Shown here one piece after another: positions 25,837-45,713 of a stretch of 64,000 bases of DNA. Position numbers and translations under genes: made by a program. Position 1 is the first letter of the stretch. Each line of letters begins with the position of its first letter. The stretch is from Coprinellus micaceus (Eukaryota > Basidiomycota > Agaricomycetes > Agaricales > Psathyrellaceae), in assembly GCA_951394405.1 (NCBI GenBank), contig OX596334.1, forward strand, positions 4,464,001 through 4,528,000, in the 5' to 3' direction. The notes under the pieces were generated by a model that saw nothing but the letters and a program-made list of their open reading frames with translations, was not told the DNA's origin and did not search any database.

Positions 25837-28339
25837 ATGAATGACCCCAATCGGACAGCAGAGCAGGCGGAGGAGGGCGGTTCTGAGCGTGTACCTTTGG
25901 GTACTAGCACTGCGGCTATCGGGCCTGGTCATGTTACAAGTATGTTGAGGTTATCGCTTCGTACTCTGAGCTGATGTTCTTTGGGCCCTCGTTCGTTCGA
26001 CAGATCACAATTACTACGTGAACCACATTGGACAAGTACAGAATGCTCACTTCGGACCGAATTACGGTACGCGGCGGGCTTCAGCCCATGTTGCCTACCA
26101 CTTCTACTCGTTACTGAGGTGGCTTAATTGTCAATCAGGGTCAATCAATCGGAACTCCCCACACGATTCTGCGGATGGGGCGGGTCATTCACTTCCTCGG
26201 CAACTAGTGGTGCACGATAAAGGTCAGTCCATCTGTGTATTGGATGTAGGGTGACGTTTATTAACTTTTACATGATAAGACCTTTTCGCGATTCTCAACC
26301 CGATCACCGACGCCTCGCACACGCGCAATCGGAGGCTCTCGCCCCCCAACTCGGCGTGCTTGCCTGGGACAAGGCTCAAAGTGACGAAGAAGATTCGTTC
26401 ATGGGCAGGCAGCAGCCTCCTCTTCGGCAACCCACACATCATGTGGATCTTCGGCTATGCGGGCTGCGGAAAGTCGGCGATCGCTCAAGAGATGGCCAAG
26501 TACTTTGCAGGGGAGAAACGGTTGGCGGCTGCATTTTTTTTCTTCCGTGGCTCGGGGGAGAGAAGTAGGATCGCGCGATTCGTCGCCACCCTGGCAAGTC
26601 AGATCGCCATCTCGATTCCTGGAACGGCACCTATCATTGAAGCGGCAGTGAGGGCCAATCCCGCCCTGCTCACGACGTCGAGCACCTCGTTGACGGACCA
26701 GGTGGAGCAACTTGTTTTTAGGCCCATAAATGCGATCAAGTGGGATAAGATGGGCGCTTCCCTTCGCCAGGGGCCTTTCTTCATCGTCCTTGATGGCGTC
26801 GACGAGTGTGAAGACCGCGAGGACGTTGCAAACCTCATCGACCACATGATCCAATTCTTCGAGGGAAAGCCTCGTATTCCTCTGCGGTTCCTCGTTACCA
26901 GCCGAGTCGAGAACCACGTCCACCAGCGCCTTCACTTATCGAGGCAGGTTCGCCTGCTGGACCTCGTCAATCACACGTCGGACGAGGATATCCTGCGTGC
27001 CCTAGAAGCTGCGATCGAGAAGGAACAGCGTAGCCGTCTCTTCTCCGGTGACCGGTCATGGCCATCCAGCGAAGATAAAGTCAGGCTTGTCAAGCACATC
27101 GGAGGGTCGTACATCTTTATGACGACCATTCTCAAGGCCCTCTTCGACTCGACCAGCAACGACGGTCGCACCCCAATGGAATGTCTCCCTCTCGTTCTCG
27201 GAATGCGCCCAGACTTTGACGGGCTTTACAGGGCGATCCTGGAGCCTTGGCAGCATCTTCCCCATTTCTTCGACATCATCAGCATCATCGCGTTAGCGCT
27301 GGAGCCTCTATCCGTTGCTCAAATCTCGAACCTCTTGGGGGTTGAGACCGTAGCTGTTGTCAATGTTCTGCTTAACCTCCATGCGGTTCTACAGATTCCG
27401 GGAGACGATTGCACCCCCGTCACGGTTTGGCACACCTCTCTTCGTGATTTCCTTTGCTCTGAGGATCGTGCGGGTCATTTATTCGTAAACTATCGGTGCC
27501 TTGCATGCAGCTGCGTTTCGTTGAGCGCTGGCACATTTCCGCACCAGGAAGATTCTCCGGCCCTCGATTACGCAGAGCGCTTTGCTCAAATACACTGGGA
27601 AAGGTACGTGGAGTCGATGGACGGCAATACAAGTGCATTCGAACAAGAACTGGAAGCCATTATGTCGCATTTGCGAAGGACCTTTTCTGGCGAAACCGTG
27701 ACCATTTTCCATTTATACGTCATTGAGAAAATCTTTGAACACGCCAATAAGGTTTCGCTTCCTTGTGTAGGTCGAAAAACCGCAGGTAAATTAGATCAAC
27801 CTCTCTCTGTTCCTTGTATCCTGATTCCATTGGATTGTAGGCGACATGTGGGCAGGGCTTGGGATGGGAACCAACACCGGAAATTGGGAGGCGCTTCGTG
27901 TCGCCGTGGAAGCGAGTGCGGATATCGAATGGAAATTCTCAGGTGAGCCCGATCTGCCTCCTTTCACGGCAACAACGACCTGAGACCCGTCGCTCAAGGT
28001 ACTTCACATAATTCCTGCGTGGCGTTAAACGCAGCTTGCGCAAGCGGTCCGCTTGGTTTCGTCCAATTTCTACTTGACCGGGGAGCCCACCCTAATGGTA
28101 AAGGTGAAATATTTCGTGAAGACCGGAATGCTTTGCTGGAGGCTGACAACGGACGATGTAGACCATTCTGAGAAAACGCCCCTTCGTATCACATGTGAGA
28201 AGGAGCGGGCCCGGTGCGCAATACTGCTCTTGGATTCTGGCGCCAATGCGACTGAAGGTGCGTCCTAATTCCTGGGGAATTTCCGATCCCGTCGCGTTAT
28301 ACGAGCTCTGATTCATCCCGCTTGTACACGAACATTTAG

Positions 28340-28936
28340 ACAACGCAGCGGCTCTCCATGCACTGGGGTGTGTGCTATATCTACATTTCAAAGAAGCAGG
28401 AACCATTGTAGATCTAGACAGAGCAATTCGCCTGGAGAGGGAGGTGCTGAAGCATCATTCGCCGGGGCATCCAGACCGTGCCAAGTCCCAGAGGTCCCTC
28501 ACTGACTCCCTCTCCTCTCGCTTCGAGAAATCGGGCTTGATTCACGAGATGGACGAAGCGATTCTCCTGAAAAGAATGGTACTCGAGCATCGCCCACCGG
28601 AACACCCAGACCGTGCCGGATCTCTCCAGAGCCTCGCCGTCTACCTGTATGCCCGCTTCAAGAAGGTCGATTCCATGGATGACCTGGATAAGGCCATCCG
28701 CTTGGAGAGAGAGTTGCTCAAACTCTACCCACCAGGACATGCAGACCGTGCCAAATTCCTTCATAATCTCACCGCCTCCCTCCATTCCCGCTTGGAGAAG
28801 GTTGATTCCATAGATGACCGGGATGAGGCCATCCGCTTGGAGAGAGAAGCGCTCGAACTCTACCCACCGGGACATGCAGACCGTGCCAAATATCTCCAGA
28901 GTCTCGCTGCCTCCCTCCATTCCCGCTTGGAGAAGG
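28340..28936 (+). repeat. TPR-coding tandem repeats, part before the insertion
   Basis: About four to five 126-bp (42-codon) units, more diverged toward the 5' side. They end at the GGAGAAGG target site. Confidence 0.75.
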
Positions 28937-29062
28937 CAAGGGGGTCCGAACTTTGTAAGTTTGCACCAGACGTCGAAAAGTTTTCTTCAGCACCATGGGG
29001 GCAACTATCTATCTATACGTGGGACCTTTATACTAAATATAGTAAGACCAGACATCACGTGT

Positions 29063-32000
29063 TCACGCGCGCTTCGTCCCCCGCTTCAGTGGGACAGGCA
29101 CGCAGGACAGGCACTTCCACGATGGATCATTCTTTGGTGCTTGGGTGCAGGCCCTATGATACTGAAGGATAGATGGTCAGTCCCCACTCTGCTCAGAATT
29201 GGATAACACTCACATTTTGGGTTTCGCAACCCCGTTGAGCACACTTAACGATCGGGCTTGATTTGCTGTTGGGGTCAACAACTTCCCCGCAGATGCAGAC
29301 ATTGAGATGACCGCGATCTTTACGTTTGGGGACTCGTTTACCCCGCCCCAGATCGCTTCCATTGAGTTGGCCTGGATCGGGCGGTTTGGGGAGTACAGCG
29401 GCGATTATGTTGCTGGCTTCATCGGGGAACGGGGTTTGGTGGGTTGAGTGCGGCCTTGCGTCGTATTCTTCCTTCCCTTCTTCTTCCCTCCCGCCAGCTT
29501 CACCACTCTGAACCAAGTTGTGATCTACCAGCGCCGTGTCCTCCCTTGCTATGTCTACGGTTGCATGACGTGCATTTGGAGTGATCGAGATCCCCACGTT
29601 GGAGTCGTCGGGCGAGTAAGTGCCATTTTCGTACCCCCACATCGTGACATCCTCTTCGGATTCTCGCGACTCCGATTCCCTACGCTGTGCGTTGTCCTTG
29701 CTGCTGCGATCATCCTCACCACTTTCCAAATCGCCCTCGCCCTCACCACTCTCTTCACCATCGCCCCCACTCTCGCTACCGCTGATGTCGTTCACCCCAT
29801 GGCTCGCCTCGGTGTCTCTAGAGAGCACGAAAGATGGTAAGCCTCATCTTCTATTCCGATAAACAGATGGTGTTAAACATACCTTGGCAGGTTCTCGATG
29901 GTTGTATGGGCCTCGGAGATTGTGATTGCAGGTACGCCGCTCTTTTTCTTGCGCCGAGCGGCTTTTTTGTGTCGGTTGACCCAGAGGTGCTGCATGGCAT
30001 CGATTTCGTCGTCTTTGATTTCCCAAAGGCTGGCATACTGGGATACCATGTCAGGGGAATGGGTGCTGATAAGGTGCTCCCGCAGGTTGTACCGCCAGAC
30101 GACCTTTGGACACAAAGGGCAGAAGAGGGGGACGTTCGAACAAGGTGCGTTTGTGTCTGAGACCGCCGCTTTCCCCCATTGAAAGTTGACAAGTCTAGGG
30201 CACCCCGCAGACCGCTCCGTATCAACTCTTGGGTTCCCCTTCGCCCCCTTCCCTTTCAATAGGAAGTACGGACACAACGACGTTGGTCGAAGGCACATCC
30301 CGCAAGGCTGATCACCACGGCTGACCAACGGATCGAAGAGGATATGTGCCCCCATGTGTTCGAGCACACGCTGGGGTTTCTTAAGGTCTAATTCGATCGG
30401 TGGGGAGCAGGCCGTGCACTGAGAAATGTCCGAACCGTCCTCTCCAGCGTCAAGTGTTCCGTCGGCTGCATCAAGTTTCGCCAAGAAACATGCTTTCTCT
30501 GTGTGTAAATCCTTGTTAGTCTGATGGCTCGCTCTCGGGATGATAGGCGCTCGTATACTCACCATGTTCTTCACGATAGGGAAAATCGAGACTGGTGGCC
30601 ACCCTGGGTAGCTGCTTCAGCTCTGTACGTGTTAGGCGTTGGGCAAGGAGCGAGGCCGTAGCGACGAGGAATGCGGACTTGAAGAGATAAAAGGGTTTAG
30701 TCGCTGCGTCGGAGAGCTCGGGGTTGAGGGGTTCAACAAGCCTTCCAGGGATGTCGAGCGTCCTTCCAGGGACGACGCAGGTGCGCCAATCGAAAGATAT
30801 GTCTTGACCGTCATCTAATTTCGCCGGACGCAGGCCAATAACTTGAAACGATATCTTTACCGCCGGCTCGACAAGAAGGTTATGCCCGATCCTATCGATC
30901 CACTGGCCGTCGTACCGAATCCCGTTCACCTCGCCAAGGATGAGCCAGAGGTGGTCTTGACTGTGGACGAGGGCCGCAATGGGGTCGTGGATGAGGAGGA
31001 GGTGCGAGTCGCTATCGTAGCTGTTTGTTTGCTGGGCTTGCGAGGAATTGTAGCGCTCGACCTCCTGTACGCGCTTCAGTCGATCTGTTGAGCTGACCTT
31101 CCGTCGGTAGCGCCCTAGATATGCCAAGGCCTTTGCTTTGGACATGATCTTGCCCTCCACGGAGACCGTAGGGTCAAATCGAGCACCCCCCGATCCTTCA
31201 GCTCCATCCGCAATATTGCTGGCTACGGCCTGAAGTTCATCCTCGACGTCAACGTGAGTTTCAGTTGAGGTTACGCTGGTGGGTGGTGCATCTTGTGGGG
31301 TCGCTGAGCCGGGTGTCGTGGCCTTCATGAGCAGCGCCTCGCTACTCTCATCGATGTCATCAGCATCAAGGTTGGCATTCACGAGAAGCTGTCCGTCTGG
31401 CGCCAACATGTGGATGGACATGTCCTCATCCGCCTGCTTGAGAATTGCGGCTGCAGGGATGTATTCCGCCTCAGCCATGGCTCGGCCTCGTCGCCAGCAG
31501 GTGAGTAGTGTCACGTCGCTAACCGTGTACGACCTTCCAGTCAAATACTTCGGACTGAGGTGGTCCGCAGAGGTTGGAACCTCTGACCCTAGCCGTGACA
31601 TGGTGGGCATTGCAAGCCGGCGAGGTCCGTGGTCCCACTGCGGACGTAAAGCAAGGATCTCCGAGATGTCGATGAGGCCTCCAACCCGTTCGCAAATCTG
31701 TAGTGTGTCGAGATTGGAGTCGTTGCCAACTACTGTGCGCAAGATGCCAAATTGGATCTCGAGTCGGTCTGTTCCTAGGAGGATGATGAAGAAACAAGCA
31801 TTTGGCGTGTCGACTTTTGCCTTCGCAACGCAGAAGAAGACATTTTTAATCATGAGAATGATGTCGATGTATAGGAGAGTGGGGATGAATTCTTTGCCGG
31901 CAGTCTTGTATAGCACAAAGAGGAGATGTGCGGCTGCGCTCAGATGTTCTAGCTGCTCTTCGAGGGAAAGGTCTACACATATGTATGCATAGACGAGGTG

Positions 32001-35000
32001 GTGGAGCAGCTTTCCAAGGACACGGAGAGCCTCACGCCCTCGTGTGGTCCCTGGGTTTTCTGAATGCCCATCGGGGATTGGAGGGATTGACCATATGTCA
32101 CGGAGGAGTTGGAATGCAAGGCGGACATCCTGAAGATCGTTGGGATTGAAGACTGAGTTAATGTGGACTTTTGACTGGCCAGTGGCCTCCAAATGGATCT
32201 TTGTGACGGCGGGTGTGATTCGAAAGTCGTCGATGAGAATTCCACGGTCGCGTAACAGGAGATTTCGAAGCCTTTTGAAGACGTGCTTCCAGTCCTTGTC
32301 ACAGGTGAGGTCGTCGTCGCCGACATGAAGGTCAAGAAGGGATAAAGGGGATAGAAACTTGTAGATGGTGGAATCCTGCGAGAGCAGCCGCTTGAATGTA
32401 GCCTGAATAAAGGCTACTCCCCGTCGTGACTCCCCGTCGGATGCCACTGAGACAATGCGTAGGCCATGGACATTCTTTGCGCTATTGATCCCGTCGAGGA
32501 CAGGCTCTACGACCCTTTGAGCATGCTCCACCCCATCCTCCTTCTTGCAGTCGCAAGACAGGAAGACTGGATGGGAGGCATTGATTCGGCTCTCCTTGCA
32601 TAATATTCCAATCGACCCAAATGTTGCCTACAAAAGACCAAATGAGAGCCATCAGAACCACTAGCACTTGGGAGGTGGTTCCAAAAACTGCGTGACTTGC
32701 GTCACGCTTGCGGGACCTCCCTAAGGCCGCAGGTCACACTGGTTGCGGGCTCCTGCGGGAGTTGCGGGGAACCTGCGGGGTCACGGGCTGGGGGATTGAA
32801 GGGGTTATTGGGGTCAAAAAATAGTCTAGCATGCACCAGCAGGCTCGCATAGACGTTTTAGACATGCACCAGAGCGAGATATTGGCATCCTTCGGGGCAC
32901 GAGCTTCTCCAATGAACGTGGGAATATTCGAATCCAAGCAACGCACGCCGGGGTTCTCTTCACCTTTGCGAGTTACGGCCATCCTACCTTCACTGGACGA
33001 GCTCAAGGCACCTGGTATTCTCGTCCCTGCAATGCGGGACTACCCTATTTTTAAAAATCTAACACTGCAAGTTGGCAACCACAGCAAAGGCGAGTGCAGT
33101 GAACATGGTGCGTGGAAGTAAGGCATCCAAAGGCTACACTTAAGTGCCGGTAGAGAGCCTAATTAGCTCTTAGATGCATATGACTATCCACAGGGGCATT
33201 CGCCTACCTTTAAAATCGTCATTCCCGCCCCGGGTAGTATAGGGAAGCGGAAACTAGGGCTTGTGAAAACCAAGTGAAAACGACTCTACCTTTCCACCAG
33301 CAACGCACCTTGCGTTCGACCAGCCCCCGTGCGGCGGATGGTGGAGCGAGTCAGGCGGATACCCTCGCGCCAACTTTCCCCGCCCTTGAAAAGATCCAGG
33401 ACGGGGTAGTTAACTACAGGTTTCGTTATCCATTTGTCCCGGGACTAATCGTCATTTTCGGAGTACTGCGACGTCCCCCAAGCCCTCAAAATTGGCAACG
33501 TGAAAAAGTTGAGAATAAAAAATACCTGAGACACCTACAAGGATCCCCCAAGTACCCCATAAAGCTATTCCCTCGCAATCATTAGTTGAAACGAGTACAG
33601 GAATGAGTAAAAGTGTCTGCGTTCCAGGGGCGACAGCTGTACCAAGCCCCGCGACAACTTCATCCATTGCCCCCACCATGTGCGAAATATTCTGGGCAAA
33701 GGAGCAGACACAATGCATTTACAATGACAGAGGTATGTATTCCAGAAAAAATAAACAGATCCAAGACCGGCTCATAACGCTTTGAGCGGTGGCAGCCGTA
33801 TCGGGCGCTTGGTCGCTCGATGTGCCAAAAGTATTAAAGTCTAACACCAAGTCCCGTCGCCTTCGCGCTAAGTGCTTGAATCTATTGTCGAAAAACAGAT
33901 TGAGTCAGTAATTCAAACAGTCTATCAGGAGGTATACAAGTTCCAATCCCTTGAGTTCGCGTGGGGGAGTACTCACGCAGCCTCCCGCAGCTGCCCCGCA
34001 GCGATCGCGAAATGATCCCGCAGGTCCCGCAGGCTCACGCAGACCGCCCCGCATTAGGGCTCGGTGAGTATTGGGCTGTTTCTCACATGCGTTAGCAATC
34101 CCTGTTAATAACACGTTAATAACCCGTTACTAACAAAGGCCAAGTTGAAGGCCAAAAAATCGGTGTGAGCAAAGGTTAGGAACCCGAGAGCACTCAGCAC
34201 CATTCCTGCTCAAAGGATACCCTCACCCGTCTCGGAGCATCCCCCAGGACCCCAAACTTGGGTTCAGACCCAGTTGACAGAACACCTTCGTACGTTCCAG
34301 ACCCGGAGGGGCCGACCCAGGTGATTAGTTTGCTCACAGTGAAATCGATTCTAACAGACGTTAATGATCATTTCTCACAAAACTCACCTGTTATTAACAG
34401 AGTAGTTACTAACCGTTACTAACTGCTACTAACACGCGTTAACAACCCCTCTCTGGACAAAAGGTTAGTAACAAATGTTAGCTATCCGGGTTTCATTTCT
34501 CACCGAGCCCTACCCCGCATGTCACGCGTGGGAATAGTTCCCCGACCCATCAAATCTCCTCCTCCTCATACTCCATAGGCTGTTCTGCGCTAATGGAACG
34601 GAACCTCGTGGTTCAGTGGGCTGAACTACACTTATATTCTACCCTAGTTCACGTATATCATGGATATTCATCCATTTTAGTGTTTATGTGGGCGAGGAGG
34701 GCAATCTGAAGTGAAATGCGATTGACGAATAGTGCCCCAAGTGGATACATTTCAGTGTAGATAGGTATTTGGTAGTGGCTCATATGGTATGTGGCTCCAC
34801 TTGAAAGGCTCCCCCGTCCCCCTCTCCGGATAGATGGGGGCGTCCCGCAGGTCCCGCAAGCGTGACCGCAGAGTTTACGACAGCCCACTTGGGATCGGAA
34901 CACAAATTTGCTCACCTCCGACGCGATATGAATCTCGCCATCATCCACAGCTTGGAAGATCTCATCGACATCCTTCATGCTCGTGAACTCCTGGGCAACC

Positions 35001-36984
35001 CTGGGCCCATGCTTGCGGCACAAACCGAGTATCCGATTTGTTCTGGGGCAGTACCGAAGGCGCTTCTCGATGGCAAGCTCATCAAACATGACCACAATAT
35101 GGCGAATGTTAGGGTCGCCGGCGATGATCTCCAGGATTCCATTGAGAACAGCGAGTGTGTTCTGTGCGACGACGTCCCAGGTAGGTGTCCCCACACAAGG
35201 TGTAAAGGGTATCTTCATTGACCCCTCTCGTAGGGTGTTTACACTCGGAAGTCCCATTGCGCGTTGAAGGATGTGGCCCACTCTATCGCCGCCCAATCGC
35301 CACAGTAACGTCGCCAGCAAACGTTCCTCCTCCCCAAAGCTCTTCACACTATACACCCCTCTCGCCGCCTTCATGATCTGCTCCAAGATCGTCGTGACGC
35401 CGCTCTTTCTCTTCAACGCCACATGCACAATTCGAGCAACACGCGGTACGTCTTCATTCGCGATTGCTACGGTGAGACGCTTGTAGTCAGATAGCGATTC
35501 TTTTTGGCGGAGGACAGCACGCGTCTGATTCAACACGTTGAAACGTAAGTGGCCATTCTGCTCGGTTTTTTTCTGGAGAGTCGAAACGAGCTCACTCCAC
35601 CCCAGGTAGGCATATGTTGTGCCTTGACGGGTACCGTTGTTCATTCGGTCGCTGATTCCTTGAATGACTGAATTTCTACCAAGCAAGGTACACGGCCTGC
35701 AAGGTTCTCCCTTGTCTTGAACCCGGCTGGTGCATTCGTGTGAGTGAAGAAACAGCTTCTCGCCACGAACACCATAGTCCCAAGGGAGCCTCTGGGACCC
35801 ATGAAGGCCAAATGGATATGAGGTATGGGGTGACTGTCCCTCGGGAATGGGTAGGTTGTATCCTGGGCACGATAATGTGTGGATCCTGGCTGATTTAAAC
35901 GCGGGCGCAGCACGATTCAACCCAAGGATTTCGATGTCCAGATCTTCCTCGAGTCCGCTTTCAGGCACATGCTGGGGATTGCCTTCGTTGGTTGGTATAG
36001 ATTTGACAACAGGTGGGGCAGTTGAAAGGTATGGAGCATTCGAGTTGGGGGCCTCAGTTGACATAGGCGGTGTATCAACGTACCCAGGGGGAGCCGCCGC
36101 CCTGATTCGTTGCCCAGGTGAGTAGGTTATTGTGTGCCATTCTGTGTGCTTACTCACCTTTCCTCTAACGCCTCTTTTATCAGGGTTAATTTTCCCTGGA
36201 ACAGGGACTCCGGCACCCCTCGTTCACCAACAAAGTACTCAACAAGACTGACGATCCCATCTACACCCCACCGTCCTCTGCGAATGACGACATCCCAGTC
36301 CGTTTTGCCATCGCCCCAGCCCAGACCTTCCTTCAAGCTTCGGTTCAAGCCTGCTTCCCATATGGCCTCCCCACAGATGCCCGGGTGATCGAGGGATTGT
36401 GGGTTTGCATATGCCGCAAGGACATCGGACTCGACACCCTCAGGGATGGAATTGGGTAGCTGGGCGATAAGATGTTGGAGGTCCCGGGCAAGGGAGATAG
36501 TAGGTGTCTGCAGACGGTTCAATGGTGTGGACACACCGGAAGTCGAGCTGTGGTGGCTAGGGCCAGCGAAAGCGTTCGAGCCTGGGTCGACGTGCTCTTC
36601 AGGAGTCTTGGTGTGGTCTGCCGCCTTGCTTTTAGATACCTTTGACCCTTCACCCTTCGGAATAATCTTGAGAAACGACAACATGGACCCGTTAGGTTTG
36701 ACCTTGGGCTTTGCAAAGCTTGCAGCCCGTTTTTTCTCCTCTTTCTCAGTCTTGGATTTGAGTGCGAGACAAGTAGGCGTGTTCTTATGTGTCTTCTTGT
36801 AGTTTTCTGTCTTCCCTCGACCCAAGCCAACTCTGGTGCCGCACACCTCGCAAAGGACTGTGTTTGATTGAGCATTGTAATTTAGGCGCGCCTGTCTATC
36901 ATTAGACCAGACATGTCATTGAACTTGATTAATTATGCCAACCTTCTCAAGCTTCTCGTCTTCGCTGTCTTCCTTGGGTGCCAT
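29063..36984 (-). CDS. Transposase of the 8.3-kb element, P-element/THAP9-like
   Basis: Seven exons (36943-36984, 36158-36891, 34916-36101, 30563-32627, 29883-30498, 29214-29817, 29063-29161) give 1,781 residues with all phases agreeing. Order: an N-terminal C2HC zinc motif (Cys28, Cys31, His49, Cys55); LPSVNTLREGS and MFDELAIEKR (Asp near 599); SDGES (Asp about 718); DKDWKHVFKRLRN (about 764-776), which fits Asp-x2-His-x2-Lys-x2-Arg-Asn; and DRLEIQFGILR (Glu about 944). Distal domains are Cys-rich (CTACSP, CGMC, and FCPLCPK with HLISTH), an acidic linker, and a C-terminal PHD-like finger (CICG, KCAQRGCETQN joined to YHRAC, WKCLSC). This motif order recalls P-element transposases, which cut and paste DNA. 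Catalytic assignments are candidates only. The third intron is 2,288 bp because of nested repeats. Confidence 0.8.
32628..34915 (-). other. 2.29-kb intron of the transposase gene, filled with nested repeats
   Basis: Bounded by GTGAGC and TTTGTAG in phase 0, but some forty times longer than the other introns here. Near both ends is an 18-bp inverted repeat GTCACGCTTGCGGGACCT (32701-32718, complement at 34849-34866), and GCGGGACC/CCTGCGGG words recur around it. This suggests a roughly 2.1-kb GC-motif element inserted in the intron. A clean target duplication was not found. The 458-bp MITE lies within. No gene recognised inside. Confidence 0.6.
34055..34512. mobile_element. hAT-like MITE nested in the transposase intron
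   Basis: 458 bp. The ends are TAGGGCTCGGTGAG and its complement, flanked by a perfect 8-bp duplication CCCCGCAT (34047-34054, 34513-34520). The interior is full of GTTANTAAC-type palindromes (for example GTTAATAAC, GTTACTAAC), a likely binding-site array. TAGGG ends with an 8-bp duplication are typical of hAT. Confidence 0.88.
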
Positions 36985-37284
36985 GGCCAGGGGTATACAA
37001 AGGTGGGGGGAGTGAAATACCGTCTCATCTTGCTTCACGCTGGGGAACCTCAGTCATGAATGATACTCACTCTAAATTGGGAAATGTTTCGAAAATCGCT
37101 TCCAGACCACATGGTGGGCCCAATCCTGGCCTATATCAATGGTAAATTATATGGCGGAACACTTTAGGACCGAATTCCATTCATTTTTGGTGAAGTCAAA
37201 AAGTTTTCGTTGGGGATCCGAGGGGTACTATCTATACTATCGTCGGGTCCGGGATTTCCGGCCCGGGACCCCCTTGGGAGAAGG

Positions 37285-38294
37285 TTGATTCCATGGATGA
37301 CCTGGATGAGGCCATCCGCTTGGAGAGAGAGTTGCTCAAACTCCACCCACCGGGACATGCAGACCGTGACAAATTCCTTCATAATATTGCTGCCTCCCTC
37401 TATTCCCGCTTGGAGAAGGTCAATTCCATGGATGACCTGGATGAGACCATCCGCTTGGAGAGAGAGTTGCTCGAACTCCGCCCACCGGGACATGCAGACC
37501 GTGCCAAATATCTCCAGAGTCTCGCTGCCTCCCTCTATTCCCGCTTGGAGAAGGTCAATTCCATGGATGACCTGGATGAGACCATCCGCTTGAAGAGAGA
37601 GTTGCTCAAACTCTACCCACCGGGACATGCAGGCCGTGCCAAATTCCTTCATAATCTCGCTGCCTCCCTCCATTCCCGCTTGGAGAAGGTCAATTCCATG
37701 GATGACCTGGATGAGACCATCCGCTTGGAGAGAGAGTTGCTCAAACTCCGCCCACCGGGACATGCAGGCCGTGCCAAATTCCTTCATAATCTCGCTGCCT
37801 CCCTCCATTCCCGCTTGGAGAAGGTTGATTCCATGGATGACCTGGATGAGGCCATCCACTTGGAGAGAGAAGCGCTCGAACTCCGCCCACCGGGACATGC
37901 AGACCGTGCCAAATATCTCCAGAGTCTCGCCGTCTACCTATATTCCCGCTTCAAGAAGGTCGATTCCATGGATGACCTGGATGAGGCCTTCCGCTTGCAG
38001 AGAGAAGCGCTCGAACTCCGCCCACCAGGACATGCAGACCGTGCCAAATATCTCCAGAGTCTCGCCGTCTACCTATATGCCCACTTCGAGAAGGTCGATT
38101 CCATGGATGACCTGGATGAGACCATCCGCTTGGAGAGAGAAGCGCTCGAACTCCGCCCACCGGGACATGCAGACCGTGCCAAATATCTCCAGAATCTCGC
38201 CATCTACCTCTATACCCGCTTCAAGAAGGTCGGTTCCATGGATGACCTGAACGAAGCCATACGCTTGAAGAGGGAGTCGCTTCAATTGTGCTAA
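37285..38294 (+). repeat. TPR-coding 126-bp tandem repeats, part after the insertion
   Basis: About eight units of 126 bp coding for 42-residue TPRs (core MDDLDEAIRLERE, PPGHADRAKYLQ). Neighbouring units are almost identical in DNA, so recent unit duplication or gene conversion is likely. The units continue, decayed and with stops, to about 38510. Confidence 0.88.
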
Positions 38295-45052: not shown

Positions 45053-45713
45053 AGGACCCCCGATTTCCCACCCAGAGGCCTCTGCAAAAATCGGCCATTT
45101 TGGGCCATTTTTATCCGGACTTTTTCGTCCAATTTCTATCCAGACATCAGAAGAGGCCCCCTGAGTGCCCAGTTTTTATCCGGACACCGGACAAGGCCTA
45201 TAAATCGCCAAAAAATCGCTTAAATATTCATTTTTTCGGCGCGCTGCGCGCATTAGCCCGCTCTTCTACGTGCCCGTAATATCACTCACCAGCCTGAAGG
45301 TGTTTGTCACTGGAGAACTTAGCGGAAGTGACGATTACACTCCCAGCGCGAGGTGCCAACTGGGCGCTTACCAAATCTGGGCGCTGCGCGGCTCGGAAAC
45401 CATTCACAAATGCCTCCAAATCCTCTCGGATGTGGCCCAGAACCTTGTCTTGAACGGTCCGTAAACTGGGTGAAAATTCGTCAATTCTCCCGGCACCGCC
45501 CTATATATGGGCGCAGGCGGCTGCCAGCCGTGGGTTTTTATCCGGACGGGAAGAGGCCCACCCTGCGACCCCCATTTTTATCCGGACGCTGGCGCAAGGC
45601 CTCAGGCCAAATCCGAGGCGTTTTTATCCGGACAGGCCAAAGGCATTTCGCGATTTTGGGGCCGTTTTTATCCGGACCTTGCAGAGGCCTCTGGGTGGGA
45701 AATCGGGGGTCCT
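45053..45713. mobile_element. 661-bp MITE with 8-bp duplication and TATCCGGAC array
   Basis: The terminal inverted repeats, about 35 bp, start AGGACCCCCGATTTCCCACC. The perfect 8-bp duplication ATGTCATG lies at 45045-45052 and 45714-45721. The interior holds six exact copies of TTTTTATCCGGAC plus one variant (TTTCTATCCAGAC), all in the same orientation, in two groups (45100-45185 and 45530-45680). No coding content. The duplication length points to hAT or another 8-bp-duplicating superfamily; the autonomous partner is unknown. Confidence 0.92.

Follow-up and report, generated by a model that had tools for sequence, protein, structure and literature searches.

Transposases of the P superfamily depend on GTP to cleave DNA and transfer strands, make a 17-nucleotide staggered cut, and in Drosophila P and THAP9 bear an N-terminal THAP domain, the need for which in superfamily membership is not established. 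The zebrafish P element is reported to have 13-bp ends and 8-bp duplications (PMC7776569), and a 2011 report described Dikarya P elements from rust fungi, including two autonomous elements with 8-bp duplications in Melampsora (PMC3164196). PHD fingers are described with RAG2-like and Rehavkus transposons (PMC7204232, PMC6446971). Here we describe a DNA transposon that interrupts an NLR-type gene of the mushroom Coprinellus micaceus, within a 64,000-nucleotide stretch (the window; contig OX596334.1, positions 4,464,001 to 4,528,000). The element probably belongs to the P superfamily, to judge from its large open seven-exon gene, which is predicted to encode a transposase of that kind, and it likely moves by cut and paste.

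The transposon and the gene it interrupts

The element and its surroundings comprise the following features (window coordinates; "no strand" where strand does not apply):

26279..28936, plus strand: host gene, a NACHT/NPHP3_N open reading frame (26279-27943) and the left part of a TPR array, interrupted
28929..28936, no strand: left target duplication GGAGAAGG, exact
28937..37276, minus strand (that of its gene): whole transposon, 8340 bp; inverted ends (11 bp) and target duplication (8 bp) both exact
28937..28947, plus strand: terminal inverted repeat CAAGGGGGTCC, exact 11 bp, with related ends in other copies
28969..29017, plus strand: conserved subterminal boxes GACGTCGAAAAGTTTT and AACTATCTATCTATA, candidate transposase-binding sites
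37195..37242, minus strand: conserved subterminal boxes CGATAGTATAGATAGT and GAAAACTTTTTGAC at the other end, candidate transposase-binding sites
37266..37276, minus strand: terminal inverted repeat GGACCCCCTTG, exact 11 bp
37277..37284, no strand: right target duplication GGAGAAGG, exact
37277..38291, plus strand: host gene, right part of the TPR array, interrupted

Both the terminal inverted repeats and the target duplication are perfect, as a sequence-only reading of the window had reported. The complete 8.34-kb element of that reading also stands, but the coordinates given for it, 28929..37284, take in both duplications, and a 2212-bp nested insertion in intron 3, which accounts for part of the size, had been missed. 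Exact 11-bp inverted pairs lying 100-9000 bp apart and flanked by exact 8-bp repeats occur at only three places in the whole window, namely the P-like element, a 458-bp insert nested within it (34055-34512) and 45053-45713.

The host gene is of the NLR type (NACHT-TPR), with a TPR array built of 135-bp units. Because other units of this repeat carry the same 8-mer, GGAGAAGG alone is weak evidence; what carries weight is that its copies adjoin the two inverted ends exactly. Excision in silico rejoins the NLR frame, as had been claimed: the joined flanks (28312-28936 plus 37285-38291) are open for 544 codons without a stop, and with the element in place the frame meets a stop at 29170. In Sphagnurus paluster, a single gene model (P0029) fuses a transposase homologue with a TPR array resembling NLR-type genes, from which it seems that in that species, too, a related element may lie beside or inside a gene of this type.

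The ends recur in the organism's own genome (G000; 50.3 Mb, 17 contigs): nine loci fetched around DNA matches (DNA-search counts being lower bounds) included three further copies with like ends and exact 8-bp duplications, while one locus, L029, showed a pair with one mismatch and poor ends, taken as chance, and five showed none. The three are short elements of 523, 523 and 793 bp, which start and finish with CAAGGGG and CCCCTTG and are flanked by the duplications GCGTGCGA, AACTTCGC and ATTTGATG, with three mismatches between their own first 11 bases in both 523-bp elements. All three short copies, like the window copy, contain the subterminal boxes, with at most two mismatches per box for GACGTCGAAAAGTTTT/AACTATCTATCTATA and at most one for CGATAGTATAGATAGT/GAAAACTTTTTGAC. 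The window element is likely the autonomous kind of source for such short relatives.

Diverged transposase copies lie at four more loci, where aligned-codon differences at positions 1/2/3 number 285/199/483 (L025), 214/176/454 (L026), 700/528/1096 (L028) and 591/436/972 (L030), a third-position excess in keeping with selection on the protein. Stops number 7, 0, 6 and 5 in the respective aligned stretches, some perhaps intronic. In L028, a diverged large copy, one end is good (CAAGGGGGTCC when read inward); a GGGGGTCC stretch lies at the expected place of the other, but no matching duplication was found. In the diverged L026 (G000:C11:580500-589500), coding for residues 4-80 adjoins that for 1068-1779, the catalytic domain being gone, and its 763 aligned codons contain no stop. 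The DNA search of the own genome turned up no other full-length copy nearly identical to the window element, counts again being lower bounds. A PF21787 search of this genome gave no match and is uninformative, since none of 14 controls matched either.

The predicted transposase

The transposase gene is laid out as follows, all on the minus strand:

36943..36984, minus strand: exon 1, start codon at 36984; gene model
36158..36891, minus strand: exon 2, N-terminal zinc-finger-like CxxC..H..C region, spotted by eye; gene model
34916..36101, minus strand: exon 3, first catalytic Asp D599 at 35081-35083
30563..32627, minus strand: exon 4, catalytic Asp D718 (32436-32438), insertion domain and catalytic Glu E944 (31758-31760)
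30621..31010, minus strand: C-terminal β-barrel, weakly SH3/BAH/Tudor-like, residues about 1194-1323
29883..30498, minus strand: exon 5, cysteine/histidine-rich; gene model
29214..29817, minus strand: exon 6, acidic stretch and first half of a PHD-type finger
29063..29161, minus strand: exon 7, second half of the PHD-type finger and stop

The model, based on frame, splice sites and homology, is open over 1781 residues and ends at 29063, with all six introns GT..AG, which bears out the earlier claim of one large gene open over seven exons.

We consider it probable that the transposase belongs to the P superfamily, an assignment first made from the letters and now supported by the predicted structure of a homologue, by profile-profile comparison and by a weak Pfam signal. 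The predicted homologue fold is closer to P transposase than to other transposases, at 15% identity to P, with RAG/Transib ranking second at about half the Z of P. Profile-profile comparison with shuffled controls points to P as well, and the places of P residues D230, D303 and E531 are occupied here by Asp, Asp and Glu with local posteriors of 0.99-1.00; these three residues are kept in 75, 78 and 77 of 78 rows, and the spacing from the second Asp to the Glu is as in P. The Pfam family TNP-like_RNaseH_N matches weakly, the window protein at E 0.1 and 16 of 26 homologues at E ≤ 1 (best 0.0014), with P0173 above the cut-off. The 8-bp target duplication of the window copy and the three short copies is likewise that of the P superfamily. 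Three points lower our confidence in the assignment: the Asp-Asp spacing is 119 here versus 73 in P, the catalytic posteriors fall to 0.68-0.69 in global mode, in identical columns, and the comparison set was partly chosen by bait. PDB sequence-profile searches with the fungal alignments gave no P match. No THAP match was found in the window protein (E ≤ 10), and THAP is absent from the 20 families matched by the 26 homologues (E ≤ 1), although a strongly diverged domain could escape.

The insertion domain appears to differ from that of P at residues listed as GTP contacts (PMC7776569). Each of eight such contacts is kept in 21-22 of 22 chosen P-type proteins, whereas the fungal rows keep two, V401 and D528, and replace at least K400, which is aligned with Asp (posterior 0.88); S409 is replaced at a posterior of 0.61, and four are not safely aligned. 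Because several GTP-contact residues appear to be replaced, GTP use has likely changed or been lost. Beyond the catalytic Glu, the protein continues for 837 residues, with the barrel and a PHD-type C4HC3 pattern that is completed by the last exon; the C-terminal piece gave no Foldseek match at E ≤ 0.001. The barrel and finger are predicted to read chromatin at the target. In the mechanism we propose, two subunits of the transposase would attach to the subterminal boxes and pair the ends, the RNase H-like D599/D718/E944 site would cut, and the element would be joined to target DNA with an 8-bp stagger.

Competing readings

Should the family be a separate superfamily, sister of P (or of P plus Transib/RAG), rather than a branch within P, the borderline Pfam scores, low identity, altered Asp-Asp spacing, apparently replaced GTP contacts, unrecognised THAP domain and much longer C-terminus would all be accommodated; we nevertheless regard this as unlikely, since the predicted fold, second-Asp-to-Glu spacing and 8-bp duplication are those of P. 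A hAT transposon is scarcely credible. The 8-bp duplication would suit one, and the CAAGGG end, as we take it, loosely fits hAT ends, but no hAT Pfam domain matched the window protein (E ≤ 10) or the 26 homologues (E ≤ 1), and the best fold match is not Hermes-like. The 8-bp duplication, together with reports of Kyakuja and Zisupton in Agaricomycetes (PMC12730594), led us to weigh KDZ alongside hAT. No KDZ-named Pfam family matched the window protein (E ≤ 10) or the 26 homologues (E ≤ 1), a comparison by Pfam names alone. The family check proposed in the sequence-only reading thus yielded no Pfam match pointing to hAT or KDZ, and the other outcome that it named as refuting, a lack of further copies with the same ends, did not occur either, given the three short copies with like ends.

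It is very improbable that the gene has been domesticated by the host, or is a dead relic, and lies between inverted repeats by chance. One intact copy only was found, and the nested insertions indicate an element resident long enough to be struck; yet the ends and duplication are exact, an unrelated gene is cleanly interrupted, 1781 codons run without a stop, and short copies with like ends exist. Within the preferred reading of a P-superfamily transposon, a bolder version is speculative and, in our view, rather doubtful: that mushrooms own a deep P branch which has lost the GTP switch, a feature considered peculiar to P, and whose BAH-like barrel and PHD tail steer integration to marked chromatin, the window holding an intact autonomous copy in an NLR gene.

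Nested insertions, relatives and described P elements

Two insertions lie within the element:

32674..34885, no strand: 2212-bp insertion in intron 3, with 9-bp duplication CACTTGGGA at 32665-32673 and 34886-34894
34055..34512, no strand: 458-bp element inside the 2212-bp insertion, with ends TAGGGCTCGGT and duplication CCCCGCAT

Intron 3 measures 2288 bp because the 2212-bp insertion with its CACTTGGGA duplication lies inside it; without the insertion, the intron would shrink to 67 bp and the whole element to about 6.1 kb. The inverted ends of the insertion are imperfect, and one end recurs at 92% on contig 11; a 9-bp duplication with imperfect inverted ends is, we presume, what would be expected of a Mutator-like element. 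The 458-bp element has a copy on contig 4 that is 100% identical over 458 bp and another on contig 11 at 95%, which suggests that it moved recently. Elsewhere in the window, the short element at 45053-45713 has 35-bp inverted ends and an exact 8-bp duplication, ATGTCATG, with relatives on contigs 7 (79%), 9 (74%), 11 and 3.

Transposase relatives occur in dozens of mushroom species, without a transposon label. Residues 380-1060 retrieved at least 221 proteins at E ≤ 1e-3, the best identity among the matches listed being 64%, in Ephemerocybe angulata; among the best 120 of the 221, those with names come from mushroom genera, which we take to be Agaricomycetes, and are annotated as hypothetical, uncharacterised or PHD-type-domain-containing. 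A profile search, overlapping this set, retrieved at least 568 proteins at E ≤ 1, and P0173, among the best 120 of the 568 listed, carries a precomputed Pfam PF21787 annotation. A viral-contig scan gave no relative of the transposase, and three homologues had no NCBIfam match. The family forms a large branch in Agaricomycetes, set apart from known P elements by its long C-terminal extension, its apparently altered insertion domain and the absence of a recognised THAP domain.

With the Drosophila P element (6p5a, 6pe2) the family shares a predicted RNase H-like fold with a helical insertion domain, the D/D/E residues and their second spacing, and the 8-bp duplication; it differs in its ends (11 bp versus 31 bp), the lack of a recognised THAP domain, the extension bearing barrel and finger, and the apparent replacement of GTP contacts. 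THAP9-type P elements (P0241-P0360) show profile similarity at E 9.5e-7 to 5.7e-10 over about 360-376 columns. The rust elements P-1_PSt, P-1_MLP and P-2_MLP, compared by description only, likewise have basidiomycete hosts, autonomous copies and 8-bp duplications, but the transposable-element section of PMC3164196 mentions no PHD finger. RAG2-like and Rehavkus transposons also tie a PHD finger to a transposition system, but belong to other transposase superfamilies.

The suggestion that such an element was undescribed holds in part. Titles and abstract openings among the matches listed yielded no report of Agaricomycete P elements or of a PHD-finger P transposase, with most subscription papers and Repbase, where an entry may exist, outside this scope, and the term "P element" had no match in the text available from papers on Laccaria transposons (PMC3411680) and Marasmius (PMC9674265). 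Autonomous fungal P elements, however, were already known from the rust Melampsora (PMC3164196).

As a large natural family with the same predicted fold and an apparently rebuilt cofactor site, these transposases would allow what GTP does to be tested directly by comparison. Whether chromatin guides target choice could also be tested with a transposase that carries a PHD-type finger, and the many unlabelled mushroom proteins in the two overlapping sets would gain a probable function.
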